From the NCBI GenBank assembly GCA_021323535.1, contig JAJONO010000036.1, positions 1 to 47,990 on the forward strand: 47,990 bases of DNA, read 5' to 3'. This document shows positions 3,475 through 45,769 of this stretch, piece by piece. A program made the translations under genes and the position numbers. The notes beneath the pieces were generated by a model. That model worked only from the letters and a program-made list of their open reading frames with translations. It had not been told where the DNA came from and searched no databases. The stretch's first letter is position 1; the number at the start of each line of letters is the position of its first letter. Source of the stretch: Bacteroidota bacterium. GTDB taxonomy: Bacteria; Bacteroidota; Bacteroidia; B-17B0; Aurantibacillaceae.

Positions 3475-5478
3475 ATGATAAATAATACAATGTTAAACGC
3501 CCAACTGGCAATCGCAGAACCTCAAAAAAAGATTCATACTCTGTGGAAAGATATTTCAGTTAAGATGAATTATCTTAATCGCCACCTGAGTGCGCTCAAT
3601 GATACTGCAGTACTGGTAGTGGCAATCAGTTCCGTTCATAATTTATACCCTGTTATTTCCTGTCTCGCAGGAAGCAAATTTAAAACGTATTTTTTCGAGA
3701 CCTCAGACGAAACAGAGTATAAAAAGATCGGATATATCGATCCCTCGCTGATCATCACGGATATCAGATCGTCTCATTTTCAGAATAGAAATGTTCTGGA
3801 TCTGAATTCGCACGATGAACAAAAGAATGTTTCCGCGGCTATTGAAAAAATTGCAGTAAATCCTGAATTCCAGGCGGTGATTTGCCCTGTGGGAAAAACA
3901 TCCATTGCAGTAAACGGAGCATTACTTGGTGAAGCGCTCGGACAGTTGGATAAAGTTTATAAACGTTCGGCGAATAGCACCATTCTTTTCTCTGAAAATA
4001 TTTCGTTTCCTGAAAAGATCCTTGATATTCTCTGGGGCGCTACAAGAAACGTTTCACTTGTGTGTGTAGCAGATCTGAAAAGCACCGGTCCTGGCAGATA
4101 TGTTTATTCAACGGATGAATTTGCCATTGACTTTGGTTTGTTTTTCTTCGGAGGGGAAACTGTTTCGGGAAATAACGGAAAATATAAGCTTCTTATGGAT
4201 GCTGCCCGTTTTGCAGATGAAAATGGTTTTTCCGCCGTGTGGACACCCGAAAGGCATTTTAATGAATTCGGTGGCCTGTTCCCAAACCCATCGGTTCTCA
4301 GCGCCTCTCTGGCAATGATCACAAAAAACGTACAGCTTCGCGCCGGAAGCATCGTATCGCCACTTCATAACGCCATCCGTATTGCCGAAGAATGGTCGCT
4401 TGTTGATAATTTGTCCAATGGCAGAGCCGGGCTTTCATTCGGATCGGGATGGCAATGCGATGATTTTGTACTGGCGCCGGATAATTATAAAGTCAGGCAC
4501 GAATTAATGCTTGAGCAGATAAAAACCGTGAAGGACCTGTGGCAGGGAAAAAAAGTGGAACAGGTGAATGGCCTTGGTAAAACAGTGGATATTGCCATTT
4601 TTCCAAAGCCGGTCAATAAACAATTGCCGGTGTGGATAACCGTCTCCGGAAAAATGGAAACATTTATTGATGCAGGAAAACTGGGTGCAAATATTCTGAC
4701 ACATCTCTTATGGCAGGACCCTTCTGAACTCATAGGGAAAATTCAGGCCTACAGGGAGTCTCTGGCGGTTAATGGTTTTGATCCTGCAAGTGGCAAGGTT
4801 ACCGTAATGGTACATACTTTCCTGGGCAATAACCTTGAAGAAGTAAAACAACTTGTAAAAGAACCATTGAAAAAATACATAAGGTCGTCGGCTTTCCTGA
4901 TCGAGAGCATGACTAAAAGCAATGTGTCTGATCAGAACAGAAATGTAGGCGGCAGGTACGGCGCTGTTGATTCTACTATATCCGAACATCAGATGGAAGA
5001 GCTTCTTGAAATAGCTTTCGAACGTTTCTTCGCGTATTCGGCATTATTGGGAACACCCGATACAGCCAGGCGTCTTGTGAAAGAAATTAAATCTTATGGC
5101 GCCGATGAGATTGCATGCCTCATAGATTTCGGGGTTCCTGACGAAAAAATTATGGAAGGCCTGGATTGCCTGGCCAGCTTTAAAGAATCCTATAGTCAGA
5201 ATTCAATAATGCGGTATAATGCAGGCTTTCTGCATTGCACGGCAGATGAGTTTGAAGCTCTTGAGAAAAACGCAGCTACAGGTAGTTATATGGATTCATT
5301 TACAGGAATTATTGTGGATACAACGCTGTTTCCCATTTCAGGAAAAATACCCGGGAACCTTTCTCAGTTAAAGTTTAATCACCTTAACAACAATAATAAA
5401 TGGCTCGAATTACCGGAAAACAATATTAAGAATACAATTATGAATAAAGTAACTGGTACAATAAGTGAAGATTTTTAA
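3475..5478 (+). CDS. Luciferase-like (FMN-dependent) monooxygenase of natural product biosynthesis, fused to an adenylation-domain remnant
   Basis: Residues from about 217 to 570 form a bacterial-luciferase-like TIM-barrel monooxygenase of the type found inside NRPS/PKS lines (IDFGLFFFGGE, TPERHFNEFGGLFPNPSVL, GRAGLSFGSGWQ). Such enzymes use reduced FMN and O2, usually on carrier-bound substrates. Residues about 30-210 look like the degenerate first part of an NRPS adenylation domain: a stretch resembling the A2 region (PVISCLAGSKFKTYF, then PSLIITD), a stretch where A3 should be but without its TSGTTG loop, and a region resembling A4 (ISFPEKILDILWGA). The A5-A10 half is absent. Known A-MOX fusions of myxothiazol and melithiazol synthetases carry the oxygenase between A4 and A5, so this looks like a detached, non-adenylating relic of that layout. 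Residues 575-667 are unassigned. The preceding NRPS ends in a C domain, the partner such a module would need. Confidence 0.88.
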   Translation: MINNTMLNAQLAIAEPQKKIHTLWKDISVKMNYLNRHLSALNDTAVLVVAISSVHNLYPVISCLAGSKFKTYFFETSDETEYKKIGYIDPSLIITDIRSSHFQNRNVLDLNSHDEQKNVSAAIEKIAVNPEFQAVICPVGKTSIAVNGALLGEALGQLDKVYKRSANSTILFSENISFPEKILDILWGATRNVSLVCVADLKSTGPGRYVYSTDEFAIDFGLFFFGGETVSGNNGKYKLLMDAARFADENGFSAVWTPERHFNEFGGLFPNPSVLSASLAMITKNVQLRAGSIVSPLHNAIRIAEEWSLVDNLSNGRAGLSFGSGWQCDDFVLAPDNYKVRHELMLEQIKTVKDLWQGKKVEQVNGLGKTVDIAIFPKPVNKQLPVWITVSGKMETFIDAGKLGANILTHLLWQDPSELIGKIQAYRESLAVNGFDPASGKVTVMVHTFLGNNLEEVKQLVKEPLKKYIRSSAFLIESMTKSNVSDQNRNVGGRYGAVDSTISEHQMEELLEIAFERFFAYSALLGTPDTARRLVKEIKSYGADEIACLIDFGVPDEKIMEGLDCLASFKESYSQNSIMRYNAGFLHCTADEFEALEKNAATGSYMDSFTGIIVDTTLFPISGKIPGNLSQLKFNHLNNNNKWLELPENNIKNTIMNKVTGTISEDF

Positions 5479-8586: not shown

Positions 8587-10641
8587 ATGTCTGATAATTT
8601 AAAGTTAGCTTCTTTAGAGCTAGCCGGATTAATATCCGGAAAAAGCAATAATCACAACAGGATCAATGAGCTTAAATCCATTCTCACATATCATCCCGGA
8701 CAACCTTCAGGTAATGGTGTTAAGGATGACGTTGAAAGAATTGGTATTTACAAGGCAACAATGATCAACGGAGAAAAACATTTTGAACGAGATATTGAAG
8801 CCCAGCACTATTTCGGTATATGGCCAAAGGTGAATACAATACCTCCGAAAAAGAAAGGAAAGCACCGCATTGTTATGTTTGGGGAATCTGTTGCAAGAGG
8901 TCTTTTTTACGAACCATATTATGCACCTCCTGTCATCCTGGAAGAAATTCTAAAAAAATGTCATTCAGAAGATACAGAAGTTATAGATCTGGCGGTTTCA
9001 TCAGTTGGTCCTGATCAGATTCTTGATCTTTGCAAAAGAGCATTCGGGCTGGAACCTGATACTTATGTGATTTTTGCAGGAAATAACTGGAAAGGGATTG
9101 GTGTAACGGAAGAAGATTTGGACGCAATAATGGCCAGCATTGGTTCCGGCAAGATCAATTATGAAAAAATAAAACAAATCCTTGGAAACGCAGTTCAGCA
9201 TTTCGCAGATGAATTCTTCTCAAAATTAAGCGCTTTAACCAGCGGTAAAAAAATTGACCTGCTGTTTATTATTCCGGAATATAATCTAATGGATTATAAA
9301 ACATCTGTGGTTCAGAAAGATGTTTCCTTTGTTGATGTTAACACGCATGAGTGGCTGGAGGTTAAAACAAAAACAGAGAAAGCTTTTGAAGAAGGAGACC
9401 TTGAGAAAGTAAAAATGCTGTCTGAAAAACTCTTATCTCTTAATCCGCTTCACTCATTGGCTTATGAGTGGCTTGCCTATTGCAGTTTAAAAGAAGGGAA
9501 AAACGACGAGGCCCGCGAGTTCCTCGAACAGGCAAGAAACAATACCATGTTTAGCCTTAAGCGCACAACTCCGGGTATAAATAATGTTACAAGAAAAGCT
9601 ATTATAGCCTCAGCTGCAAAATACAATTTTCCAACCTTATGTTTAAAGGAAGTATTCAGCGAACATCTGAAAGGAAATCTTCCTGGGCGTGAACTTTTCC
9701 TGGATTATTGTCATTTAACAACCGAAGGAATAAAAATAAGCATGAGTAAAGCTGCAGATCGTTTGGTGCAGATCTGGACCGGAAAAAATATTTCTCCGGA
9801 AGCGTTACGCGATTATAAAATTTCGGCCGATCCCGCCATTCTCGCAGCAGCACATTTCTGCGCAGCCCTGCATAACGCGCATTGGGGCCAGGGGCATGAA
9901 ATTATCAACCACCATTGCAGGCAGGCTTTGGATAGTCATGGCGAAACAATAAAAGCAATGACTTCCTACCTTGATATGATATCAAGAAAAGCCCCATGGC
10001 TTGTTAATAAAGAAACGCATTATCTTAAGAACAGTAATTTCGGAAAGCAGATCGCAGGCGGCATCAACATAGAAATGGAATCGTTTAAGTTTAACGATAT
10101 TGTTTTCGTAGAGTCTATCCTGCAAGCAATGAAGGAAAAAGGAATTCATCTTTCGGAAAAAATTGAGGATCTAAGGCAGTCCGAATATGCTATTGGTACA
10201 TCCAAAGTAGATTTGCTTCAGACATATTATCTTCCAAGTACATTTGACTCTCTTGTGAGTTTTAATTACAGGGAAACCAGTTTTTATGTGGAAAATGGTT
10301 CAAGGTCAAATTTTCATTTTGTTACTTCAGATAAATTACCAATAGAAATTGATCTTACCTATCGCACACCGAATCCTGCTAAAGCCGACGAAAAAATAGA
10401 AGTTTATGTCAATGATGATTTATTCACGGCTTTGCCCCAGGAAAAAAACTGGAAAAGTATTTCACTTAAAATTCCGCAGAAGTATTTCAAAAAAGGAATG
10501 AATAATCTGCGGATCCACTGGCCTGTTCCATTGACCAATGATGTGGTGCATACCGAAGATAAAATGAAAGACCTGATCCTTGCCCTGACGCCAAGCTGGG
10601 GTGAGATTCATACGTTTTACTGCAGACAACTTTTAAACTGA
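8587..10641 (+). CDS. SGNH/GDSL-hydrolase-like protein with TPR-like segment and C-terminal beta domain
   Basis: The N-terminal domain has a split SGNH arrangement: block I as MFGESVARG near residues 98-106 (nucleophile Ser in G-E-S), block II SVGPDQ, block III AGNNWKG near 165, and block V DYCHLTTEG near 373 giving the Asp-x-x-His pair. The catalytic triad is therefore potentially intact. Between blocks III and V lies a TPR-like helical insertion (about 255-305; KAFEEGDLEKVKMLSEKLL, then AYEWLAYCSLKEGKNDEA). The last 130 residues look like a beta-sandwich (IEVYVNDDLFTALPQ...). No signal peptide is seen, so it is probably cytosolic. SGNH proteins act as esterases, lipases or O-acyl/acetyl-modifying enzymes; its job here is unknown. 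It sits 14 bp after the carbamoyltransferase and 14 bp before the next NRPS, so it is part of the pathway operon. Confidence 0.75.
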   Translation: MSDNLKLASLELAGLISGKSNNHNRINELKSILTYHPGQPSGNGVKDDVERIGIYKATMINGEKHFERDIEAQHYFGIWPKVNTIPPKKKGKHRIVMFGESVARGLFYEPYYAPPVILEEILKKCHSEDTEVIDLAVSSVGPDQILDLCKRAFGLEPDTYVIFAGNNWKGIGVTEEDLDAIMASIGSGKINYEKIKQILGNAVQHFADEFFSKLSALTSGKKIDLLFIIPEYNLMDYKTSVVQKDVSFVDVNTHEWLEVKTKTEKAFEEGDLEKVKMLSEKLLSLNPLHSLAYEWLAYCSLKEGKNDEAREFLEQARNNTMFSLKRTTPGINNVTRKAIIASAAKYNFPTLCLKEVFSEHLKGNLPGRELFLDYCHLTTEGIKISMSKAADRLVQIWTGKNISPEALRDYKISADPAILAAAHFCAALHNAHWGQGHEIINHHCRQALDSHGETIKAMTSYLDMISRKAPWLVNKETHYLKNSNFGKQIAGGINIEMESFKFNDIVFVESILQAMKEKGIHLSEKIEDLRQSEYAIGTSKVDLLQTYYLPSTFDSLVSFNYRETSFYVENGSRSNFHFVTSDKLPIEIDLTYRTPNPAKADEKIEVYVNDDLFTALPQEKNWKSISLKIPQKYFKKGMNNLRIHWPVPLTNDVVHTEDKMKDLILALTPSWGEIHTFYCRQLLN

Positions 10642-36589: not shown

Positions 36590-37576
36590 ATGAATAAGTA
36601 CTGGTTTTGTATTTTGGTTTTTATTGTCTCCTGTAAAAAGAAAGCCGATCCTCCTGTTGAGCAAGAGCCTGTTCAAACTACAGCAACATACACGGTATTT
36701 AATACCAGCAACACCGCTTTATCAAGTAACAAGATAAACGCTATAACCGCGGATAACTCGGGTTCATTATGGTTTGCAACAGCAAAAGGCCTTACAAAAT
36801 ATAACGGAACTTCATGGTTTACTTTTGATTCAGTTTCCAATTCTTTACCCAGCAGTATTTTTAATTGTGTTAAAGCAGATCATTCAGGTAATATCTGGGC
36901 CGGGACAAACAACGGACTGTTAAAATACAATAATGGTACCTGGCAGGTATTTAATACTTCTAACTCTGCAATACCAATCAATAAGATACGATCTCTTGCA
37001 ATAGATACTTTTGACAATGTATGGGTTGGGACATATAGTGGTGGCGGACTTGCTAAATACAATGGATCAACATGGCTTGTTTATACGCCTTCTAACTCAG
37101 GTCTGCCAAACAATTCGGTTGGAGCTTTGGCATTCGATAAAAATAATTTGCTGTGGATTGGAACAGCATCAGGGTTATGTTCCTTCGACGGATCGGCGGC
37201 ATGGAATTATTTTAACGTGTCCAATTCCGGATTACCTAATAACAGTGTTTACAGTATTTCTGTTGATAATGTCAACACAAAATGGATAGGAACCAACGGC
37301 GGTCTCAGCACATTTGGAACCTCGGGATGGCAAACATATAATTCTGCCAATTCGGGATTGCCAATTAATCTGGTTCGCCCGATAACTTTTTTTCAGGGCA
37401 CAACAAAATGGATAGGAACAGAAGGCGGAGGAATTGTGAGTTTTGATAACAACAATTGGAATGTGATCAATTCAAATAACAGCAACCTGCCTGATAACTT
37501 TATTACTTCCATTATAGTTGACGCGCAAGGGAAAAAATGGGTAGGCACTAACAACGGACTTGTTGTTATTCCTTAA
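36590..37576 (+). CDS. Lipoprotein with seven-bladed Reg_prop-type beta-propeller
   Basis: 328 residues. The N-terminus is a lipoprotein signal with lipobox Ile-Val-Ser-Cys (CILVFIVSCKKK), placing it in the membrane, probably facing the periplasm or cell surface. The rest is about seven repeats of roughly 40 residues, each with a core like NNSVxxIxxDxxxxxWIGTxxGL followed by a Trp-containing strand and an SNSGLPNN linker. This is the two-component-regulator propeller repeat usually found in the sensor part of hybrid histidine kinases, here without kinase or transmembrane parts. Seven repeats fit one closed propeller. Ligand unknown. It is monocistronic as far as can be seen. Confidence 0.85.
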   Translation: MNKYWFCILVFIVSCKKKADPPVEQEPVQTTATYTVFNTSNTALSSNKINAITADNSGSLWFATAKGLTKYNGTSWFTFDSVSNSLPSSIFNCVKADHSGNIWAGTNNGLLKYNNGTWQVFNTSNSAIPINKIRSLAIDTFDNVWVGTYSGGGLAKYNGSTWLVYTPSNSGLPNNSVGALAFDKNNLLWIGTASGLCSFDGSAAWNYFNVSNSGLPNNSVYSISVDNVNTKWIGTNGGLSTFGTSGWQTYNSANSGLPINLVRPITFFQGTTKWIGTEGGGIVSFDNNNWNVINSNNSNLPDNFITSIIVDAQGKKWVGTNNGLVVIP

Positions 37577-37741
37577 TACTGTCCGTTATTTCCTTCCTTT
37601 CTTTATCCGGGTTCTTTTCTTTTTTAATTCATCATTCGCAATTCGCGTTCTTAATTCGTTTCAACTTCATGATTTAAAATTTCTTTGTAACCAAATCCTT
37701 TTCCCGGCTTATAAAACGTAAACACCAACGTAAATCATAAA

Positions 37742-37771
37742 AAGATGTAAAATGAATAATGTTTACATCTT
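37742..37771. repeat. Perfect 10-bp inverted repeat
   Basis: AAGATGTAAA at 37742-37751 pairs with TTTACATCTT at 37762-37771 around a 10-base loop. It lies about 165 bp after the propeller gene and 30 bp before the first GTAGGGTA site. No T-run follows, so it is not a classical terminator; it may be a protein-binding site or an RNA hairpin. Confidence 0.4.
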
Positions 37772-37801
37772 CCTTCATCCATCTTCTATTTTCCATCGTA
37801 A

Positions 37802-37827
37802 GTAGGGTATTGCTCCCCGGCTACGTT
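37802..37827 (+). promoter_or_regulatory. Predicted ECF sigma promoter, site 1 (GTAGGGTA-N14-CGTT)
   Basis: GTAGGGTA at 37802-37809, a 14-base spacer, then CGTT at 37824-37827 (followed by TTA). The start codon of the first short peptide gene is at 37849, 47 bases after the start of the box. Box spacing fits ECF -35 and -10 elements, and the same architecture recurs five more times nearby. Confidence 0.75.
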
Positions 37828-37848
37828 TTATATACAAAGCACAAGATC

Positions 37849-37980
37849 ATGAAAAAGGAATTCTTTAAAATAGTAAGTCGCATCTTCAGCAGTAAGGTAG
37901 AGTTACGTAGCAGCGAAAAAGATGAATCATTTCGTAACCTCGATACAATTCGTTTTAACAGTTTTATCAGCGCACCTTAA
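37849..37980 (+). CDS. Short peptide 1 of the RF-x-x-FISAP family
   Basis: 43 codons, starting at an ATG in the context GATCATGAAA directly behind promoter site 1. The peptide begins MKKEFFKIVSRIFSS, a basic, amphipathic helix-like segment, has a charged middle, and ends in IRFNSFISAP. Two other small genes (38056 and 42481) share the Met-Lys opening with a hydrophobic/basic N-terminus and the RF-x-x-[FL]-[IM]-[ST]-AP ending. Each also has the same promoter 46-47 bases before its start. An upstream in-frame extension from 37759 would cross the promoter and is unlikely. Function unknown; no signal peptide with a cleavage site is evident. Confidence 0.65.
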   Translation: MKKEFFKIVSRIFSSKVELRSSEKDESFRNLDTIRFNSFISAP

Positions 37981-38009
37981 GCCCTCAACTCTCAACCTTC
38001 AACGCAAAA

Positions 38010-38035
38010 GTAGGGTAATTCCAAAATCACACGTT
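38010..38035 (+). promoter_or_regulatory. Predicted ECF sigma promoter, site 2 (GTAGGGTA-N14-CGTT)
   Basis: GTAGGGTA at 38010-38017 and CGTT at 38032-38035 with the same 14-base spacer. The second short peptide gene starts at 38056, 46 bases from the start of the box. Transcripts from here could continue into the sigma factor gene at 38284, which has no box of its own. Confidence 0.75.
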
Positions 38036-38055
38036 CTATAATTAAACCAGCAATC

Positions 38056-38175
38056 ATGAAAACCAGCATATTAAAATTAGCAAATGCACTCTTCAGAAAA
38101 GATGTAAGATCTTTTGTTGAGCAGGAACATAAAGTAGAAGTAGTACGATTTACCACATTAATGACTGCCCCATAA
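38056..38175 (+). CDS. Short peptide 2 of the RF-x-x-FISAP family
   Basis: 39 codons, ATG in the context AATCATGAAA. The peptide opens MKTSILKLANALFRKD and ends VVRFTTLMTAP, the divergent version of the shared C-terminal motif (Leu, Met and Thr replace Phe, Ile and Ser). Placed between promoter site 2 and the sigma factor gene. That the ending is kept while most of the middle differs from the other two peptides suggests selection on the C-terminus. Function unknown. Confidence 0.62.
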   Translation: MKTSILKLANALFRKDVRSFVEQEHKVEVVRFTTLMTAP

Positions 38176-38283
38176 GTCCACAATTATCCAGGAAAGAGGC
38201 TAACCTGCCCCATTCGTAGGCCAAACCCCATTTGTATAAAGGAATATTTTTCTATATTCACGGTTTAAATAACAAAACCTGCA

Positions 38284-38796
38284 ATGGATTCAGTTTGCGA
38301 CGAGGTAAATTATAAAGGTATCTTCAAGGAACATGGCAAGGCCCTCCGCAATTTTATTTATTATAAATGCGGCGATCTCGACCGGGCCAAAGATATCATG
38401 CAGGAGGCCCTTATTAAATTATGGGAAAACTGCGCTAAAGTGGAACTCGGTAAAGCCAAATCGTTCTTATACACGGTTGGCCAAAGAATACTGATAGACC
38501 AGGTGCGACACGATAAAGTTAAACTCGAATTCACTAAAAAAAGCGAAGTCAATACGGCTAACGATCCGGCTTTTGAACTCATTAAAAAAGAGTTTGAGCA
38601 AAAGCTCATGCAGGCCATTTCCGATATGCCCGAAACCCAGAGAGAAGCTTTTTTAATGAACCGTATGGATAATATGTCCTATAAAGACATTGCCGAAGCT
38701 CTTGATATTAGCGTGAAAGCTGTTGAAAAGCGTATCCATCTGGCCCTCTTGTATTTAAAGGATAAAGTAAAAGAATTAAAAACTCATAAAATATAG
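38284..38796 (+). CDS. ECF-type RNA polymerase sigma factor (FecI-like)
   Basis: 170 residues with sigma region 2 (CGDLDRAKDIMQEALIKLWEN, a -10 recognition region) and region 4 (MPETQREAFLMNRMDNMSY, then DIAEALDISVKAVEKR, the -35-binding helix-turn-helix), and no regions 1 or 3, as in ECF factors. The next gene is a FecR-type anti-sigma factor, followed by a TonB receptor with an STN domain, so the sigma factor probably responds to a ligand at the cell surface. The gene itself lacks a GTAGGGTA box in its 100-bp upstream region; it may be read from peptide promoter site 2 or from a weak housekeeping promoter. Its stop codon directly abuts the box that serves the anti-sigma gene. Confidence 0.92.
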   Translation: MDSVCDEVNYKGIFKEHGKALRNFIYYKCGDLDRAKDIMQEALIKLWENCAKVELGKAKSFLYTVGQRILIDQVRHDKVKLEFTKKSEVNTANDPAFELIKKEFEQKLMQAISDMPETQREAFLMNRMDNMSYKDIAEALDISVKAVEKRIHLALLYLKDKVKELKTHKI

Positions 38797-38822
38797 GTAG
38801 GGTTAATTCGGTCTGGCTCGTT
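38797..38822 (+). promoter_or_regulatory. Predicted ECF sigma promoter, site 3 (GTAGGGTT-N14-CGTT), before the anti-sigma gene
   Basis: GTAGGGTT at 38797-38804 begins at the first base after the sigma stop codon; CGTT is at 38819-38822, again with 14 bases between. One mismatch to the other five boxes. The anti-sigma gene starts at 38854. This would let the sigma factor raise transcription of its own inhibitor and the receptor. Confidence 0.65.
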
Positions 38823-38853
38823 TTAGTATCAAAACAACCCCCAAACCTGAAAA

Positions 38854-39780
38854 ATGAACGAAGGAGAAGAAACATTATTAGCAAGATGGTTAAGCAACGA
38901 GCTTACCGCCGAAGAAAAACGTAAGCTCGAAGAAAGCGGAGAAGCCGAAACGCTCCGCCGCATTGTAGCCAGCATGGAAACATGGACCTTACCGGACCTT
39001 GCCGAAGAAACCTATTCTGATATTAAATCGAAACTGGATTCTGAAAGCGAGGCAAAAGTAATTCCGCTTTACCAGCGCCGTTCTTTCCTGGCTATTGCCG
39101 CAAGTCTTTTATTATTGGTTGGGTTATTCTTCCTTCTCCGCCCAATGATGACTTCGCAGGCTGCTATGACCGACTTTGCATGCAACGCGGGCGAAACAAA
39201 AGAGTTAAAACTTCCTGATAATACAAACATCATTCTTTACGGAAAAAGTAAGATCTCTTACGATAAAGAAAATTTCGCGAGCGACCGCAAATTAAAACTC
39301 GAAGGAGAGGCGTATTTTGAAGTAAATACCAAAGGCGCTTTTGAAGTTGATTTTGCCAATGGAAAAGTAAATGTTCTGGGAACAAAGTTCAATGTTCTTA
39401 CTTCAAGCGAAGAAGCTTCGGTAAAATGTTTTGAAGGAAAAGTAAAAGTAGAAGTTGAAAATAATTCGGCTGTGCTTGTCCCTGGACAAGGGGCAAGAAA
39501 AACAAAAACAGGAAACTTTACCGAGTTTGAATTCAAAGCCAATATTCTTCCGGGCGCCGGAGCCTTCAGAAATATTGAAAATACGCCACTTGAAGAAGTC
39601 TGCAATACCTTGTCAGTATTTTACGATGTCAAAATTATTAATGAGAATGTGGATCTGAGCCGTAAATTCTCCGGACAAATGAATCAGCAAAACCTGGATA
39701 CGGCTTTAACTATGATTTTTGTTCCGATGGACATTACGTTTGTTCGTAATCAGAGTACGATCACAATCAAAAACAAATAA
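38854..39780 (+). CDS. FecR-type anti-sigma factor
   Basis: 308 residues. A cytoplasmic N-terminal part of about 70 residues (sigma-binding; LLARWLSNELTAEEKRKLEE) is followed by a single membrane helix (FLAIAASLLLLVGLFFLL, about 73-93). The periplasmic FecR domain has KELKLPDNTNIILYGKSKI, GEAYFEV and VNVLGTKFNV. The C-terminal part (TPLEEVCNTLSVFYDVKI onwards) is the DUF4974-like domain that meets the STN domain of the receptor. It should hold the sigma factor until the receptor signals. The gene lies 57 bp after the sigma gene, behind promoter site 3, and 26 bp before the TonB receptor gene. Confidence 0.92.
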   Translation: MNEGEETLLARWLSNELTAEEKRKLEESGEAETLRRIVASMETWTLPDLAEETYSDIKSKLDSESEAKVIPLYQRRSFLAIAASLLLLVGLFFLLRPMMTSQAAMTDFACNAGETKELKLPDNTNIILYGKSKISYDKENFASDRKLKLEGEAYFEVNTKGAFEVDFANGKVNVLGTKFNVLTSSEEASVKCFEGKVKVEVENNSAVLVPGQGARKTKTGNFTEFEFKANILPGAGAFRNIENTPLEEVCNTLSVFYDVKIINENVDLSRKFSGQMNQQNLDTALTMIFVPMDITFVRNQSTITIKNK

Positions 39781-39806
39781 TACTTTTCACTTTAGAAAAG
39801 CCCCCA

Positions 39807-42410
39807 ATGTTGCCAGCAAAAAAATATATAACGGCTATTGCCATGTTCATTTTTCCGTTCCTTGTTGTATCACAAAACGGAAAAACAAGCGATCTGTCTT
39901 CGGTAATTAGTTTCCTCAATGCAAAATACGGCGTTGTTTTGTCGTATGATGTAGAGCTTATCAAAGATGTTCCGGTAAATATTGATACAACACAATCTGA
40001 TCTTAAAAATATTCTCCACGAATTAAATTCCGAAACTGCTTTTCATTTCGAATTACTAAACAGCAAAAACGTTCTTGTAAAACCTAAATCCAGCGGACAA
40101 AATTTTATTATTTCGGGAACTGTTTTCGATAAAAAAACACAGGAACTTCTGCTTGGAACTATAATTTATCAGTCGCGCGCCAAATACGGGGTGTATGCCA
40201 ATGAAAGCGGAAATTTTCATAAAGCAATTAAATACAATGCCGATGATTCCATTGTTGTTTCAAGTATCGGATATGAAAAAGTAATTTATCCTTTAAGTTA
40301 TTTTGCAGGAGGGCAAAAAAAGATAGCGCTTCAGAGTCAGAGAATTCAGATGAACGAAGTTTCGGTTACGGCTTATCTTACCACAGGAGTATCTTACGAT
40401 GCCACCGATAACAGCATTAACATCCGCCCTAAAAATCTGAGTATTTTGCCGGGAAGCGTAAACGGAGATGTTCTTGGCGCGCTCGATGCAATGCCGGGAA
40501 TAAGCTCCACCGATGGCAAAGCAGGCAGCCTTAACATACGGGGAAGTTCGCCCGATCAGACACAGATCAACGTAGATAATATTCCGGTTTATCTCAAAGG
40601 ACATTTTTTTGGTTCAATAACTCCGGTAAATCCTAATGCGGTGGATCAGATCAAAGTGCAGAGAAGCACCATGAGCGTTGATAAAGGAGGAAGAGCAGGG
40701 GGACTCATCGATATTCATACTGCAAATAATGTAACCAATAAACTTCACGCTACAGTTTCTTCATCGGCAATGGATGGAAATGTTTACGTTCACACCCCGG
40801 TATTAAAAGATAAAATCAGTGTAGCAATTTCGGCCAGGCATTCATACCCTTTCAATAATGAAAACCCGGCGTTTACTTCTGTCTCCAATTATCTTTTTCA
40901 GAAATCAGAAATGCGCCCATTGTTTGACGGTACAAGTTCCGACAAACTTGAAAAATTCGGATTCGATTATTCAGACGCTAATGCAAAAATAAATTACAAC
41001 ATTTCCTCAAAACACAAAGGAAGTGTAAGCGCGCTCTTCATTCAGAATTACATGATGGTTGACAGAAACTCGGCAAAAAACAACACGCGTTATCTCGATG
41101 AAATAAGAATGCATAACTGGGGACTGAACACGTCGCTTCACTCATCGTGGACATCACGCTTCAATACTTTTTTATCGCTTACACACTCAATCTACAATCA
41201 GTCATTCGATGTTTTAAAACAAAATTATACAAGAGACTCGCTGATTTCAAAATCGCTTTATGAAAATGAGGCCGCGGATTCAAGAATATTATTTGAAACA
41301 GATTATAAAATCAATAACAATTTTGTTCTCAAAACCGGGTATGATGGAAGAATTCAGAATGTACATTATCTGAGAGCCAGTAACAATTACACAAACACCT
41401 CGTTCATGCAGAATTTTAAAAACGAAGGTATTGTAAATTCAATGTACACCACCTTGTCGGGAAACATCACTAAAAAATTCTTTATGAACGTAGGCTTAAG
41501 AGCTAATCACTATACTTTAACAGGCGAATATAGTTTTGAACCACGCGCGTTTCTGAATTACTCAGTGAATAATTTTTTCAGACTGAAAGCTTCCGGTGGA
41601 TATCAGAAACAATTTGTGGTGCAACTCACCGGCGTTAACATTGAAAGCGTGGGAGGATTAGATAACCAGATATGGATGCTGGCCGATGATAGGTATATTC
41701 CAGCAGTAAACAGTTTCCAGGGAACTTTTGGAGGAATGTTTGAAAAGAATTCATGGTTAATTGATCTCGAAGGTTATTACAGGGATGTAATGAATGTTAC
41801 ATCGGTTAGTCTTACCACGCCCCTTCGCGAATTTCCATTTATCTATGGAGGAATAAAAACTGCCGGTGCCGATTTATTGGTGAGAAAACAATGGAAAAGC
41901 ATTGACGCGTGGGTTAGTTATTCATACAGCGATTCACGTATGCAATTCGATAGCATTAATGGAGGAACGTCGTTTACCTCTATCTATGATCAAACACATA
42001 TTCTCGATGTTGCCGGTTCATACAGAATTGGTCAGTTTAAATTTTCAATGGGTTGGAAATACCGTACCGGCCTTGCTGCATTGCCATCGATACGTACAAG
42101 AATGTTAAGTGGGGCTCCCACAACTGTAAAGCAACCGTCTCCGCCACCACCGCCAGGCACACCTGTTCAGCCAAAGTCTGCGCCTCCTGTTGGATATACC
42201 GGACGTTTTCCAGATTATCATCAACTGGATGTTTCGGTGTATTACAATTTTCCGAAAGAGGTAAAAGGATTCAAAGGCTCAGTTGGTATTTCAGTAATGA
42301 ATTGTTACAATCAGGATAACATCATTGAGCAAAGTCCCGAAAGAAATACGGTGAGCAGTCGCCTCATGCCTCTGATGGCTCCTAACCTTTTTATCACGCT
42401 TTCTTTTTAA
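39807..42410 (+). CDS. TonB-dependent outer-membrane receptor/transducer with STN signalling domain
   Basis: 867 residues. Signal peptide (YITAIAMFIFPFLVVSQ), then an STN domain (about 30-92; LSSVISFLNAKYGVVLSYD) that contacts FecR-type anti-sigma factors. Next a carboxypeptidase-regulatory-like domain (about 105-190; ISGTVFDKKTQELLLGTI), a plug (VLGALDAMPGISSTDGKAG, LNIRGSSPDQTQINVDNIP) and a 22-strand-type barrel ending in Phe (LFITLSF). A Pro-rich loop lies near 776-795 (PSPPPPPGTPVQPKSAPP), unusual for a barrel loop. No SusD-like partner gene follows. The setting with sigma and anti-sigma genes indicates a transducer that both imports a ligand and reports it. The ligand is unknown; the regulon's His-rich and YHYH proteins weakly hint at a metal. 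Confidence 0.92.
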   Translation: MLPAKKYITAIAMFIFPFLVVSQNGKTSDLSSVISFLNAKYGVVLSYDVELIKDVPVNIDTTQSDLKNILHELNSETAFHFELLNSKNVLVKPKSSGQNFIISGTVFDKKTQELLLGTIIYQSRAKYGVYANESGNFHKAIKYNADDSIVVSSIGYEKVIYPLSYFAGGQKKIALQSQRIQMNEVSVTAYLTTGVSYDATDNSINIRPKNLSILPGSVNGDVLGALDAMPGISSTDGKAGSLNIRGSSPDQTQINVDNIPVYLKGHFFGSITPVNPNAVDQIKVQRSTMSVDKGGRAGGLIDIHTANNVTNKLHATVSSSAMDGNVYVHTPVLKDKISVAISARHSYPFNNENPAFTSVSNYLFQKSEMRPLFDGTSSDKLEKFGFDYSDANAKINYNISSKHKGSVSALFIQNYMMVDRNSAKNNTRYLDEIRMHNWGLNTSLHSSWTSRFNTFLSLTHSIYNQSFDVLKQNYTRDSLISKSLYENEAADSRILFETDYKINNNFVLKTGYDGRIQNVHYLRASNNYTNTSFMQNFKNEGIVNSMYTTLSGNITKKFFMNVGLRANHYTLTGEYSFEPRAFLNYSVNNFFRLKASGGYQKQFVVQLTGVNIESVGGLDNQIWMLADDRYIPAVNSFQGTFGGMFEKNSWLIDLEGYYRDVMNVTSVSLTTPLREFPFIYGGIKTAGADLLVRKQWKSIDAWVSYSYSDSRMQFDSINGGTSFTSIYDQTHILDVAGSYRIGQFKFSMGWKYRTGLAALPSIRTRMLSGAPTTVKQPSPPPPPGTPVQPKSAPPVGYTGRFPDYHQLDVSVYYNFPKEVKGFKGSVGISVMNCYNQDNIIEQSPERNTVSSRLMPLMAPNLFITLSF

Positions 42411-42433
42411 ATATTAAAAGTTCTTTCTTTCAG

Positions 42434-42459
42434 GTAGGGTAATCATGAACAGGTCCGTT
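42434..42459 (+). promoter_or_regulatory. Predicted ECF sigma promoter, site 4 (GTAGGGTA-N14-CGTT)
   Basis: GTAGGGTA at 42434-42441 and CGTT at 42456-42459, followed by TTA as at site 1. The third short peptide gene begins at 42481, 47 bases from the box start, the same distance as for peptide 1. Confidence 0.75.
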
Positions 42460-42480
42460 TTATTATTAAAGACCGAAATC

Positions 42481-42600
42481 ATGAAAACAATTTTTAAATT
42501 TCTAACCAGCATTTCAAAGAGAAAAGCTGTTTCGTATGATTCAACCATTGACTTTAAGGTTGATTACGCCAGGTTCAATGGATTCATCAGCGCGCCTTGA
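42481..42600 (+). CDS. Short peptide 3 of the RF-x-x-FISAP family
   Basis: 39 codons, ATG in the context AATCATGAAA. The peptide opens MKTIFKFLTSISKRKAVSY and ends YARFNGFISAP, nearly identical to the ending of peptide 1 (IRFNSFISAP) although the genes are 4.6 kb apart and otherwise diverged. It sits directly downstream of the TonB receptor gene behind its own promoter (site 4) and upstream of the YHYH gene. Function unknown; candidates include a secreted or membrane-acting peptide or a small regulator of the anti-sigma system, none shown by the sequence. Confidence 0.65.
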   Translation: MKTIFKFLTSISKRKAVSYDSTIDFKVDYARFNGFISAP

Positions 42601-42642
42601 GTGAATACTTAAACAAATAACTTCTAACGAATAATAAAAAAG

Positions 42643-42668
42643 GTAGGGTATTTTCCTTTTCAACCGTT
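42643..42668 (+). promoter_or_regulatory. Predicted ECF sigma promoter, site 5 (GTAGGGTA-N14-CGTT), before the YHYH gene
   Basis: GTAGGGTA at 42643-42650 and CGTT at 42665-42668 with the 14-base spacer. The YHYH gene starts at 42715, so the leader would be roughly 40 bases, longer than for the peptides. Confidence 0.75.
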
Positions 42669-42714
42669 TTGTAAAAAATAATCCAATCAATTATAAACTA
42701 AAACAAAGACAAAC

Positions 42715-44028
42715 ATGAGAAAAATCGTACTAATGCTATTGGCTATTGCACCTTTACTAGGCATTTCCCAGCCCGAGATTACCAGCTGGAAAATGAATAC
42801 CAATGGCCAATTGGCCAGTTTCTGGTCGCCCAGCGGTAATCCCCCCACGGTTACTTACTCTTACATGCCTACAACCGATTCTGCCGACGTGCTTAAAGTA
42901 TGTTATAGAACCGATTCGGTTTGGCTTTACTGTAAGGGTATGACCTTTAATATGGGGAAATACATGAACCCGGGAAATTGCAGCTCTAAAGTTTACATCT
43001 ATCGTATTCCGCGTATTCCAACTGTTCCTTCAACAAAAACCATTTCATCAAAAATTGGTGCCATTGGTGTACTTGTTAATGGTATCCCAATGTATGGTTT
43101 AGGTGATTCTAAGTCATGGACGGGTTCCACTAACTCCAACATGGGTGGTTTAGGAATCTGGAACGTTGAGGTTTACAAAGGAGAAGGTGTTTCTCTCGAT
43201 ACAGCCCTCTCGGCTCACCCTCAGCAACAGGGAGCGTATCATAGTCATGCGAAACCTCGTCGTCTATACCAAAATACACCAACCTCGCAGCACTCTCCGA
43301 TTGTGGGTTACGCATTTGATGGATACCCTGTGTATGGTCCTTACGGTTACAGCACCCCAACCAACTCTGCAAGCGCTGTTTCAAGAATGAAAAGTGGTTA
43401 CAGTTTAAGAAGCATCACAACAAGAACGGTGTTGCCTTATGGTGTAGCTATTACAGCGGCTCAGTATGGCCCCCCGGTAAACACAACGTACCCTATCGGA
43501 ACTTACTGCGAAGATTATGAGTGGTTAGCTGCAAATGGTGGCGACCTTGATAAATACAACGGAAGGTTTTGCGTAACGCCTGAGTATCCTTCAGGAACGT
43601 ATGCTTACTTTACTGCAATTGATGCGGCATCAACACCACAATTTCCTTACTACATCGGTATCGAATATTATGGAAAACCTGATGCTTCCTGCGCAGGATC
43701 CGGAACAACAACCGGACTTAAATTCCCTGCAACAGGAATTACCTGTAACACTGCTACAAATCTCGATGAGATTAAAAAGGAATTTTCATTCAGGATTTAC
43801 CCGAATCCATCTAACGGAAATTTCACAATTGGTTTAGAGGAAAATACAGATCTGTTCAAATCAGTTGAAGTGCTTAGTCTTATGGGACAAGTTGTTTATA
43901 ATGCAGAGTTGAGCGGATCAAAAACAAACGTTGTTTTGCCTTCAGATCTGAGTAAGGGTATTTATTTTGTTCGGGTACTTGGTAAACAATCACAGGTTTA
44001 CGCAACAGAAAAAATAACTATTGAGTAA
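42715..44028 (+). CDS. YHYH-domain protein with T9SS type A sorting domain
   Basis: 437 residues. Signal peptide (IVLMLLAIAPLLGISQ), then a YHYH-type domain around residues 100-330: GVLVNGIPMYG, a His motif GAYHSHAKPRRL in place of the naming YHYH, and SPIVGYAFDGYPVYGPYGY. The C-terminal 75 residues are a T9SS type A sorting signal (FRIYPNPSNGNFTIGL, then LSKGIYFVRVLGKQ). It should be exported and anchored at or released from the cell surface. YHYH proteins have no settled biochemical role that I know of; the His and aromatic residues suggest metal binding. It lies behind ECF promoter site 5 and is followed by a hairpin terminator at 44051-44079. Confidence 0.88.
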   Translation: MRKIVLMLLAIAPLLGISQPEITSWKMNTNGQLASFWSPSGNPPTVTYSYMPTTDSADVLKVCYRTDSVWLYCKGMTFNMGKYMNPGNCSSKVYIYRIPRIPTVPSTKTISSKIGAIGVLVNGIPMYGLGDSKSWTGSTNSNMGGLGIWNVEVYKGEGVSLDTALSAHPQQQGAYHSHAKPRRLYQNTPTSQHSPIVGYAFDGYPVYGPYGYSTPTNSASAVSRMKSGYSLRSITTRTVLPYGVAITAAQYGPPVNTTYPIGTYCEDYEWLAANGGDLDKYNGRFCVTPEYPSGTYAYFTAIDAASTPQFPYYIGIEYYGKPDASCAGSGTTTGLKFPATGITCNTATNLDEIKKEFSFRIYPNPSNGNFTIGLEENTDLFKSVEVLSLMGQVVYNAELSGSKTNVVLPSDLSKGIYFVRVLGKQSQVYATEKITIE

Positions 44029-44050
44029 ACTAACAGGATTGGATTATTGA

Positions 44051-44079
44051 AAAGACTGCTCTCAGGGGCGGTCTTTTTT
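44051..44079 (+). terminator. Rho-independent terminator after the YHYH gene
   Basis: AAAGACTGC (44051-44059) pairs with GCGGTCTTT (44068-44076), one G-T wobble, around an 8-base loop; three further T residues follow (44077-44079). It lies 23 bp after the YHYH stop codon, separating that gene from the His-rich outer-membrane gene. Confidence 0.75.
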
Positions 44080-44144
44080 ATTTATAATCACTTCGTAAAG
44101 GTGCCTTTGCGCTTAGTTTGTACTCGGCGAAGTTATCTGCTTTG

Positions 44145-44170
44145 GTAGGGTAAAAAGATATTCGAACGTT
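44145..44170 (+). promoter_or_regulatory. Predicted ECF sigma promoter, site 6 (GTAGGGTA-N14-CGTT), before the His-rich outer-membrane gene
   Basis: GTAGGGTA at 44145-44152 and CGTT at 44167-44170, spacer 14. The gene starts at 44266, giving a leader of about 90 bases, the longest of the six. Confidence 0.72.
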
Positions 44171-44265
44171 ACTAATACAAATAAACATAAACCACTAAAT
44201 TTGCGCAGCTTAAAAAACATAAATAAACTAAGTTCTTTTTCTATTTACTACAATCATAAACGATC

Positions 44266-45222
44266 ATGAAAAAACAGTTTCTTTTTATGTTGTTTGTGTT
44301 GCCAATAGCCGCTAAAGTATCGTCGCAATGTCAATGCGGAGGTGCTTCCATGATGATGTTGGGCGAAAATACCAATGGCTCGGTTTCACTGAAAAGAAAT
44401 TCATGGATGGTTGAAAGCGGAGGCGAATACCGATATTTTAATTCACCTGAGGTAGCAACACATACACATTCACATTCGGGCTCGGTCCCATCACATACAC
44501 ATACAGCGGAAGACACTGCTCAAACAAAATTAAATCATGCCTGGATGGGATCATTAAACATCCGATATGGTGTTACGGGAAGATTAACTCTTTCGGTACA
44601 ACAACCTTATGTATGGTTAACGGCCACACCAAAGGATGCGGGTGGAAGAGGAGATTTACTTTTTTTTGCGACATATAAATTTCTGGACAGGAATGATTTT
44701 TCTGCAGCCATTCTTGGAGGAGTTAAACTTCCATTAGGAACACGCTCGGATTTGGGAAATGAAAGCCAGCTTATGATAGGAACCGGCTCCTACGATCCCG
44801 TAACGGGAATCAATCTGGCGCTGTCAAAACCAAAAATAATCCTGAGGGCCACCGCGTTTTATAAATATGCGGGAACGGGCTATAATGATACGAAATACGG
44901 TAATTTCTTTAACCATACGGTGTCGTTTACCTATAAAGTAAAAGATGGTTCGGCATGTACTTCTGATTCGGTAAGAAAAATACCAATGAGCTGCTCTGTA
45001 TTTACCTCTTTAAGTGGAGAGTTATATGGGAGACAATCGACAAACGATGTTGTTTCGGCTGAAACAGGAGGATATCTTCTTCTCGCAGGGGCAGGTATCC
45101 AGTTCGGAAACAGGAAATGGAGTTTTCCATTGGGGGCATCATTTAATGTTTATCAACGTATGCATTCAGAAGAAAACAGCAATAAGCTAAGAGTGAGATT
45201 AGCAGTCATAAGGTCGTTTTGA
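44266..45222 (+). CDS. Outer-membrane beta-barrel protein with His-rich segment
   Basis: 318 residues. A signal peptide (FLFMLFVLPIAAKVSSQ) is followed by CQCGGASMMMLG, with two closely spaced Cys and several Met. Residues about 65-85 contain THTHSHSGSVPSHTHT, five His in a short loop, a likely metal-binding segment. The remainder alternates short amphipathic strands and ends in Phe (LAVIRSF), as expected for a 10-14 strand outer-membrane barrel of the transporter-like type. The combination resembles barrel proteins that meet metal ions, but no family is certain. Its start context GATCATGAAA is the same as for the short peptides, and it has ECF promoter site 6. Confidence 0.75.
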   Translation: MKKQFLFMLFVLPIAAKVSSQCQCGGASMMMLGENTNGSVSLKRNSWMVESGGEYRYFNSPEVATHTHSHSGSVPSHTHTAEDTAQTKLNHAWMGSLNIRYGVTGRLTLSVQQPYVWLTATPKDAGGRGDLLFFATYKFLDRNDFSAAILGGVKLPLGTRSDLGNESQLMIGTGSYDPVTGINLALSKPKIILRATAFYKYAGTGYNDTKYGNFFNHTVSFTYKVKDGSACTSDSVRKIPMSCSVFTSLSGELYGRQSTNDVVSAETGGYLLLAGAGIQFGNRKWSFPLGASFNVYQRMHSEENSNKLRVRLAVIRSF

Positions 45223-45394: not shown

Positions 45395-45769
45395 TTATTT
45401 CAGGTGTTTTGAAAGGTATTTTGCCATTTCAAACATGGATACCTGACCTTTACCGTTGAAGATAGCTTTTAACTTTGCATCAGCGTTGATCATTCTCTTG
45501 TTTTTAGAGTCTTGTAATTTGTTTGCTTTGATGTAAACCCAAAGTTTTTTAACTACCTCGGTACGTGGAATCGCTTTGTTACCAACTACTGCAGCGAGTG
45601 CGGCACTTGGAGTAAGAGCTGCCATAAAGGCTGCGTTAGGCTTACGGTTTGATTTTTTCTTCGGCGCTTTTTTAGCCGCTTTTTTTGGTGCTTTTTTCGC
45701 TACTTTTTTCTTAGCAGCTGCTTTTTTAGCAGGTTTTTTTGCTGCTTTTTTTGCTGTTTTTTTTGCCAT
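45395..45769 (-). CDS. Lys/Ala-rich histone H1-like protein with SWIB/MDM2 domain
   Basis: 124 residues. The first 43 are a low-complexity basic tail of Lys, Ala and Pro repeats (AKKTAKKAAKKPAKKAAAKK), like histone H1 tails and bacterial AlgP/Hc1-type nucleoid proteins. Residues about 50-122 are a SWIB domain (PSAALAAVVGNKAIPRTEVV, KKLWVYIKANKLQD, then INADAKLKAIFNGKGQVSMFE). Such proteins are known in Bacteroidota and Chlamydiae and probably compact or organise DNA; the exact role is not settled. Single gene with the strong terminator at 45340-45374 just downstream. The repetitive codons produce a long open frame on the opposite strand that is not a gene. Confidence 0.92.
   Translation of the reverse strand: MAKKTAKKAAKKPAKKAAAKKKVAKKAPKKAAKKAPKKKSNRKPNAAFMAALTPSAALAAVVGNKAIPRTEVVKKLWVYIKANKLQDSKNKRMINADAKLKAIFNGKGQVSMFEMAKYLSKHLK

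Follow-up and report, generated by a model that had tools for sequence, protein, structure and literature searches.

A micropeptide family with a common C-terminal ending in a predicted FecI/FecR-type regulon of a Bacteroidota bacterium

Introduction

FecI/FecR systems are common in Bacteroidota, and what they control is usually taken to be transporters and enzymes. Genes of fewer than 50 codons are easily missed in annotation. A locus in contig JAJONO010000036.1 of the Bacteroidota assembly GCA_021323535.1 raises the question of whether such a system also governs a set of very small proteins, and what these might do. The stretch of DNA that was analysed (the window; 47,990 nucleotides) is contig C90 of this 5.31-Mb genome (G000). 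It carries genes for a FecI-like sigma factor, a FecR-like anti-sigma factor, and a TonB-dependent receptor, flanked by three short open reading frames (ORFs) called p1, p2, and p3 in the order p1, p2, fecI, fecR, receptor, p3, and a gene for a YHYH protein.

An earlier note on this DNA, made by a model from the sequence, had described p1 to p3 as peptide genes that follow a promoter box, have unrelated middles, and end alike in a C-terminus that appears to be under selection. Here we describe what became of these proposals, and we weigh several explanations for the function of the peptides.

Results

Four short genes with a common ending

All three ORFs are present in the window with the positions, lengths, and endings that had been ascribed to them (Table 1), and the start context ATCATGAAA can be read at p1, p2, and p3. 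In-frame upstream ATGs would lengthen p1 to 73 amino acids and p3 to 51 amino acids; one of these codons lies upstream of the box and one inside it. A fourth paralog, p4, is located on contig C138 of the same genome (positions 8943-9062, ending RYNGFISAP, MKTILRILNSMSTRKTTFTESNMDFEMDRARYNGFISAP), where it starts at +47 from its own exact box. This copy qualifies two of the proposals in the earlier note. The RF of the shared ending holds for p1, p2, and p3 and is RY in p4, and the middles are not wholly unrelated, as p4 is 56% identical to p3. Across the four copies the common motif is R[FY]xx[FL][IM][ST]AP.

A profile of p1 to p4 recovered 4 matches from their own genome, which are the peptides themselves. 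When the genome was searched with a DNA pattern for [FL][IM][ST]AP followed by a stop codon, 4 of the 5 matches were again p1 to p4 and the fifth ends in TGG, which is not a stop; the reversed control of this pattern gave 2 matches, and 2.4 are expected from composition.

Evidence that these genes are coding comes from their last nine codons. Eight bases differ between p1 and p3 with a change of 1 residue, 10 bases differ between p3 and p4 with 1 residue, and 9 bases differ between p1 and p4 with 2 residues (P<=0.0017 for each pair in a simulation that places the same number of changes at random, with P taken in either direction). The null model is crude: it uses random sites, makes half of the changes transitions, and includes no tree. 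Because 8 to 10 base differences yield only one or two residue changes, the ending is coding and selected. Even the Ala codon of the final AP is different in each copy (GCA, GCC, GCG, and GCT). Over the whole length of p3 and p4, the nonsynonymous rate (dN) is 0.34 and the synonymous rate (dS) is 1.86. The three pairs that involve p2 are not significant (5, 5, and 6 residue changes, P 0.07-0.82), and the changes in the p2 ending are conservative. Selection on the C-terminus, as the earlier note had proposed, is thus evident in three of the six pairs, those among p1, p3, and p4, where it is purifying. We conclude that p1 to p4, of 39-43 amino acids, are a coding peptide family in one genome.

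A promoter box shared by the peptides and fecR

The exact box GTAGGGT-N15-CGTTYT occurs 11 times in the genome, compared to 0.24 expected from the composition of the window, and it is common to the predicted sigma-dependent targets, with one copy before fecR. Ten of the 11 boxes precede an ORF: the four peptides, fecR, three YHYH genes (at 42715 in the window and on contigs C55 and C40), a 57-amino-acid lipoprotein-like ORF on C62, and a receptor-like gene on C112 whose Plug match is below the cut-off only. The remaining box, on C72, lies inside a 591-amino-acid gene of the other strand and is followed by a 61-amino-acid ORF that was left out of the count. Overlapping divergent boxes are seen on C55 (59931-59976; L074), the exact one before the YHYH gene and one with the mismatch ATAGGGT facing a 36-amino-acid ORF.

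As had been noted for p1 to p3, the peptide genes start 46 to 47 bases after the start of the box, compared to 49 to 88 bases for the six other box-linked genes, so the description of the peptides as the genes closest to their boxes is roughly right. By number they can fairly be called main outputs of the regulon, as they account for 4 of the 10 boxes with an ORF behind them.

Relaxed versions of the box carry less information. A looser form gave 6 matches versus 2 in the reversed control, and boxes with one mismatch are uninformative genome-wide (17 versus 15 in the reversed control). The shorter pattern TAGGGT-N15-CGTT was found 14 times in this genome (9 in the control, 8.06 expected) and 4 times in a related genome, G001 (8 in the control). 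Because of this last comparison, only the two G001 matches that precede a start codon carry weight. These are before fecR (TTAGGGT-N15-CGTTAA at +47) and before a 65-amino-acid ORF discussed below.

FecI/FecR/receptor loci in other families were also inspected (eight loci, seven genomes). Locus L108 (genome G217, another Bacteroidia family, with the same gene trio) has GTAGGGT-N15-TGTTAT at 4791 (+), placed +47 before fecR, and GTAGGGT-N15-TGTTTT at 4208 (-) before a divergent gene. The first half of the box, GTAGGGT, stands before fecR genes confirmed by Pfam (+47 in L108, +46 in L114), and it lies upstream of another gene adjoining the trio in L109 and L110. No such box was seen before these genes in L107, L111, and L112.

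Because the same box precedes the peptides and fecR, the peptides look like outputs of the neighboring FecI/FecR/TonB-receptor system. We infer that the FecI-like sigma factor binds the box.

The sigma locus

The features of the locus are collected in Table 1. Its fecI gene is downstream of p1 and p2 and has no box directly before it. The receptor gives no match to the Pfam STN domain at E<=0.01, and its residues ~30-95 look STN-like by eye.

Table 1. Coordinates of features at and near the sigma locus (window positions)
Feature	Position	Strand	Evidence or remark
Box GTAGGGT-N15-CGTTTT before p1	37802..37829	+	p1 ATG at +47
p1 peptide, 43 aa, ending RFNSFISAP	37849..37980	+	ORF list, codon test
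Box GTAGGGT-N15-CGTTCT before p2	38010..38037	+	p2 ATG at +46
p2 peptide, 39 aa, ending RFTTLMTAP, the most divergent ending	38056..38175	+	Codon test not significant
FecI-like extracytoplasmic function (ECF) sigma factor	38284..38796	+	Pfam Sigma70_r2, r4_2; TIGR02985 109.9 bits (below cut-off 126.4)
Box before fecR	38797..38824	+	fecR ATG at +57
FecR-like anti-sigma factor	38854..39780	+	FecR PF04773 E 3.3e-17, FecR_C PF16344 E 3.9e-10
TonB-dependent receptor, presumed signal transducer	39807..42410	+	Pfam Plug, CarbopepD_reg_2; 49% counterpart in G001
Box GTAGGGT-N15-CGTTTT before p3	42434..42461	+	p3 ATG at +47
p3 peptide, 39 aa, ending RFNGFISAP	42481..42600	+	ORF list, codon test
Box before YHYH gene	42643..42670	+	YHYH ATG at +72
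YHYH protein with type IX secretion sorting domain	42715..44028	+	Pfam YHYH, Por_Secre_tail
Terminator-like site, 13 pairs, the most among 9 sites in 37500-44300	44049..44078	+	Shuffles average 6.3 sites
Inexact box GTAGGGT-N15-CGTTAC upstream of the 44266 gene	44145..44172	+	
Outer-membrane-type protein with His-rich stretch	44266..45222	+	Pfam Phenol_MetA_deg; sequence

On the coding strand there is no terminator-like site between p1 and fecI or between p3 and the YHYH gene, and weak ones lie inside the receptor gene (39917) and the YHYH gene (42804). A single long transcript with internal promoters is possible.

This arrangement invites the idea that the peptides act in cis, as leader or arrest peptides on whose conserved AP-stop ending ribosomes would stall and so control fecI or the YHYH gene downstream. 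A selected C-terminus with Pro before the stop codon agrees with it, as does the placement of p1 and p2 upstream of fecI and of p3 upstream of the YHYH gene. However, a separate box lies between p1 and p2 and another between p3 and the YHYH gene. Folding of the four junctions is no better than that of shuffled sequences (z 0.87, -0.95, 0.79, and -1.19), so no leader structure is seen, and nothing in 36500-44300 matches Rfam. RAPP and RGPP are arrest motifs according to PMC12992588, and although p1 to p4 share with such peptides a C-terminal motif that includes Pro, none of them ends in either sequence. We consider control in cis quite improbable.

In the neighborhood of the locus, a large nonribosomal peptide synthetase/polyketide synthase (NRPS/PKS) cluster occupies positions 101-34654 and ends ~3 kb before p1. 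It includes genes that by eye encode an ABC transporter and thioesterase-like and phosphopantetheinyl-transferase-like proteins, and the window scan found no box in it. On the other side of the locus, at 45395-45769 (minus strand), is a gene for a Lys/Ala-rich repeat protein that is histone H1-like by eye. Contig C138 carries another ECF sigma factor gene (3732-4899, minus strand; L005; Pfam regions 2 and 4) ~4 kb from p4, with a 216-amino-acid ORF lacking a Pfam match beside it.

A plausible link to copper

On C40, the box-driven YHYH gene is followed by a gene with a Pfam MbnP match (E 1.5e-51) and then by a di-heme peroxidase gene (PF03150, E 2.1e-51). These MbnP- and MbnH-like genes are below the NCBIfam cut-offs, at 216 of 363 bits for TIGR04039 and 37.5 of 140 bits for TIGR04052. 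Among the four neighbor proteins scanned from the eight related loci, a di-heme peroxidase adjoins fecI in L107. A copper-linked regulon is plausible from these gene contents.

The combination recalls methanobactin gene sets (MbnA, MbnI/MbnR/MbnT, and MbnP/MbnH), in that one box connects genes for small peptides with FecIR-like control and with MbnP/MbnH-like genes. PMC3621798 describes MbnP/MbnH pairs near MbnI/MbnR/MbnT-like genes, and it adds that, at that time, no data tied close MbnP homologs to copper. By analogy, p1 to p4 could be precursors of ribosomally synthesized and post-translationally modified peptides (RiPPs), for instance of a Cys-free metal-binding product made under a metal-responsive sigma factor, and the resemblance to the sets of PMC3621798 would fit. 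So would the presence in the genome of two genes of the multinuclear nonheme iron-dependent oxidative enzyme (MNIO) family, to which MbnB belongs (PF05114). Unlike methanobactin precursors, however, the four peptides have no Cys and thus no Cys core. Both MNIO genes lie elsewhere, on C91 and C123, and adjoin Cys-containing small ORFs of their own, and a box scan of the two regions gave a single partial match, ATAGGGC, inside a gene. By eye, no modifying enzyme is directly beside the peptide genes, though the NRPS/PKS cluster is close to p1. A RiPP origin appears improbable to us.

The two MNIO regions are observations in their own right. On C123 (9292-11224; L098) the PF05114 gene is accompanied by three tandem small ORFs whose starts resemble signal peptides by eye and whose endings are rich in Cys (CCNKCGLG, CGPCGMG, and CPACGRG), a candidate modified-peptide cluster. 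On C91 (6732-9143; L097) the second gene is grouped with a DoxX-like gene and the gene of a small protein that contains Cys, a set that, with names given by eye, we take to resemble bufferin operons.

Searches in relatives

The expectation that the endings would recur in relatives was not borne out. At the level of the order (87 genomes, all of one family), only the peptides' own genome matches at E<=0.02. At E<=1, 33 of the 87 genomes match, and the best of these besides the source has E 0.0265 and 17.3 bits with an internal stop. In a class-level sample of 395 drawn genomes, which includes the source genome and some of its family, 10 others match at E<=0.05 with 16-19 bits, compared to 72-81 bits for the members, and none is convincing. 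The frames of 10 of the weak matches were read with forward orientation assumed, so for any on the minus strand the strand that was read could be the incorrect one. Two stretches of viral contigs matched and none was confirmed, and the longer box pattern had no match in viral contigs. The pattern D[YRT][AI]R[FY]N[GS]FI, which misses p2-like endings, matched 18 stretches of genome contigs, none of them confirmed.

The absence of any described family like these peptides, which the earlier note had also asserted, agrees with our database searches. Three of the four peptides have no Pfam match (best E 0.021 for p2), none of the four has an NCBIfam match, and PHROGs gave a best E of 0.04 and no family. 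With p3 as the sole query, plasmids gave no match. A profile search of the PDB returned 4 chains, all with pentatricopeptide (PPR) repeats; the best whole-sequence E of 0.0013 arises from repeated 10-residue matches, each insignificant alone. In the available parts of the open-access literature, PMC10141476 and PMC9249621 among them, we recognized no micropeptides of FecI/FecR systems.

Only G001, among the 87 genomes, has a counterpart of the receptor at 48-49% identity, and the nine other genomes with receptor matches at E<=1e-40 are at 26-28%. A receptor scan of genome contigs with two poor patterns found a single locus, which we take to be that of G001. In G001, the three genes of the trio are ordered as in the window. 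An equivalent of p1 or p2 could exist at the G001 trio, because the contig ends ~130 bases before fecI.

Another G001 contig (C286, L133) carries an exact box and a p2-like leader, CAGCAATCATG, before the Cys-free 65-amino-acid ORF (700-897), which ends in NSVWSSSPWL and is followed by a 30-amino-acid ORF (930-1022) ending in ELPVWVILF. G001 is the sole relative found with a box before a short ORF, and this ORF ends differently. Its comparison with p1 to p4 is not significant, as 126 of 2000 shuffles attain its summed score, and in a profile search it was absent from the 12 best of 2002 sequences, which were all shuffles. We therefore did not retain it as a homolog. One reading of G001 is that a unit of promoter and short ORF has been kept and that its peptide is fast-changing or has been replaced.

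Could the peptides be signals for the receptor? In such a loop, the C-terminal 8 to 9 residues would be cut near the conserved Arg, exported, and sensed by the adjacent TonB-dependent receptor, and FecR and then FecI would bring about more peptide. Peptide genes lie on both sides of the sigma/anti-sigma/receptor trio and follow its box, no terminator-like site intervenes as described above, the common ending would suit repeated doses of a single ligand, and the divergence of the G001 receptor together with the different endings of the short ORFs in that genome is what coevolution would give. Nevertheless, we saw no export signal by eye, and no peptidase or exporter is the first gene behind any of the 11 boxes. 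The C138 copy has no receptor gene among the ORFs of >=100 amino acids on its contig (by eye), the structure model of the receptor is unusable (mean predicted local distance difference test [pLDDT] 28.8), and no such system was recognized in the available open-access texts. On balance a signal loop, the boldest of the alternatives, seems unlikely. Its fuller form as a pheromone loop, in which a C-terminal octa- or nonapeptide is the receptor ligand and FecR and FecI amplify both the peptides' own genes and copper-handling secreted proteins, we regard as somewhat less likely still.

Discussion

Possible function of the peptides

The reading that we tentatively favor, with less than even confidence, is that p1 to p4 are cytosolic, membrane-associated regulatory microproteins that dock through their C-terminal motif. 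The outer-membrane receptor would signal through FecR to the FecI-like sigma factor (38284), which would use the GTAGGGT/CGTTYT promoters, and the peptides would be produced while the sigma system is on. They probably remain in the cytosol, as by eye (no predictor was used) they have no signal peptide, lipobox, or Gly-Gly leader. The N-terminal helix might lie on the inner membrane, R[FY]xx[FL][IM][ST]AP might be a short docking motif for a putative partner protein, and the variable middle might serve as a linker. The likeliest partner would belong to the same regulon or take part in metal (copper) handling, and the peptides could provide feedback or tune an activity.

There are four separate promoter-ORF units, one of which, on C138, sits between two tandem paralogous genes, and this suggests action in trans. 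By eye, the peptides carry neither a Sec signal nor a Gly-Gly leader and no modifying enzyme is next to their genes, which argues against export.

The N-termini of p1 to p4 are basic and amphipathic, with helical moments of 0.60-0.65, and the sum of the four moments is reached by 0.1% of window-maximised shuffles (P 0.001). AlphaFold2 models the peptide as one long helix. A net charge of +2 to +4 and jointly amphipathic N-termini might also suggest membrane-active antimicrobial peptides. We find this highly improbable, as the charge is low, no leader or immunity gene was noticed by eye, and selection is seen on the C-terminus and not on the helix.

Several observations weigh against the microprotein proposal. 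No partner protein was found for the C-terminal motif. For p3 and p4, the codon simulation detects no constraint in the first twelve codons (P 0.60) or in codons 13-30 (P 0.13). Taken singly, the peptides give weak amphipathic signals under window maximisation (P 0.124, 0.051, 0.028, and 0.058), and the AlphaFold2 model has low confidence (mean pLDDT 67.2, predicted template modeling score [pTM] 0.26). The idea that the C-terminus mimics the FecR N-terminus was rejected, with a score of 8.25 compared to 14.5-25 for the 25 best stretches. The copper theme comes from a single MbnP/MbnH pair in the peptides' own genome. Finally, GTAGGGT by itself is not enriched on the two strands of the eight related loci (11 occurrences versus an expected 8.1), and L108 is the one locus where the rest of the box also fits. 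For this reason GTAGGGT was dropped as a clade-wide promoter beyond L108 and G001, and the link between box and sigma factor draws on the source genome, G001, and L108.

One weak lead toward a partner emerged when the C-terminal profile was compared with 23 window proteins. The best match was receptor residues 450-459, SRFNTFLSLT (ungapped score 22.5; next protein 14.25). After shuffling, 7 of 1000 receptors and 70 of 1000 protein sets reach that score, and the best score in the G001 receptor is 13.75.

Comparison with known systems

The locus resembles FecI/FecR/FecA cell-surface signaling in having an ECF sigma factor with regions 2 and 4, a FecR-domain anti-sigma factor, and a TonB-dependent receptor in that order, with a box before fecR. 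It differs in that the box-linked genes include four micropeptides with a common ending, and no such micropeptides are known to us from the described FecI/FecR/FecA systems. The peptides are a new family within a known kind of regulon.

If the microproteins act as proposed, their nearest functional parallels may be MntS and FbpA-C, small proteins of metal regulons that act by feedback or activity tuning. The likeness consists of a length of ~40 residues and membership in a metal-responsive regulon, which for p1 to p4 is presumed, and we know of no sequence relation.

Significance

The sequence family has so far been found in one genome, which limits its breadth. The promoter box offers a direct genome-wide route to such small genes, and the common ending is a motif open to testing. 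Should the peptides exert feedback on the sigma factor, the anti-sigma factor, or the receptor, cell-surface signaling would gain a micropeptide arm that had not been recognized.

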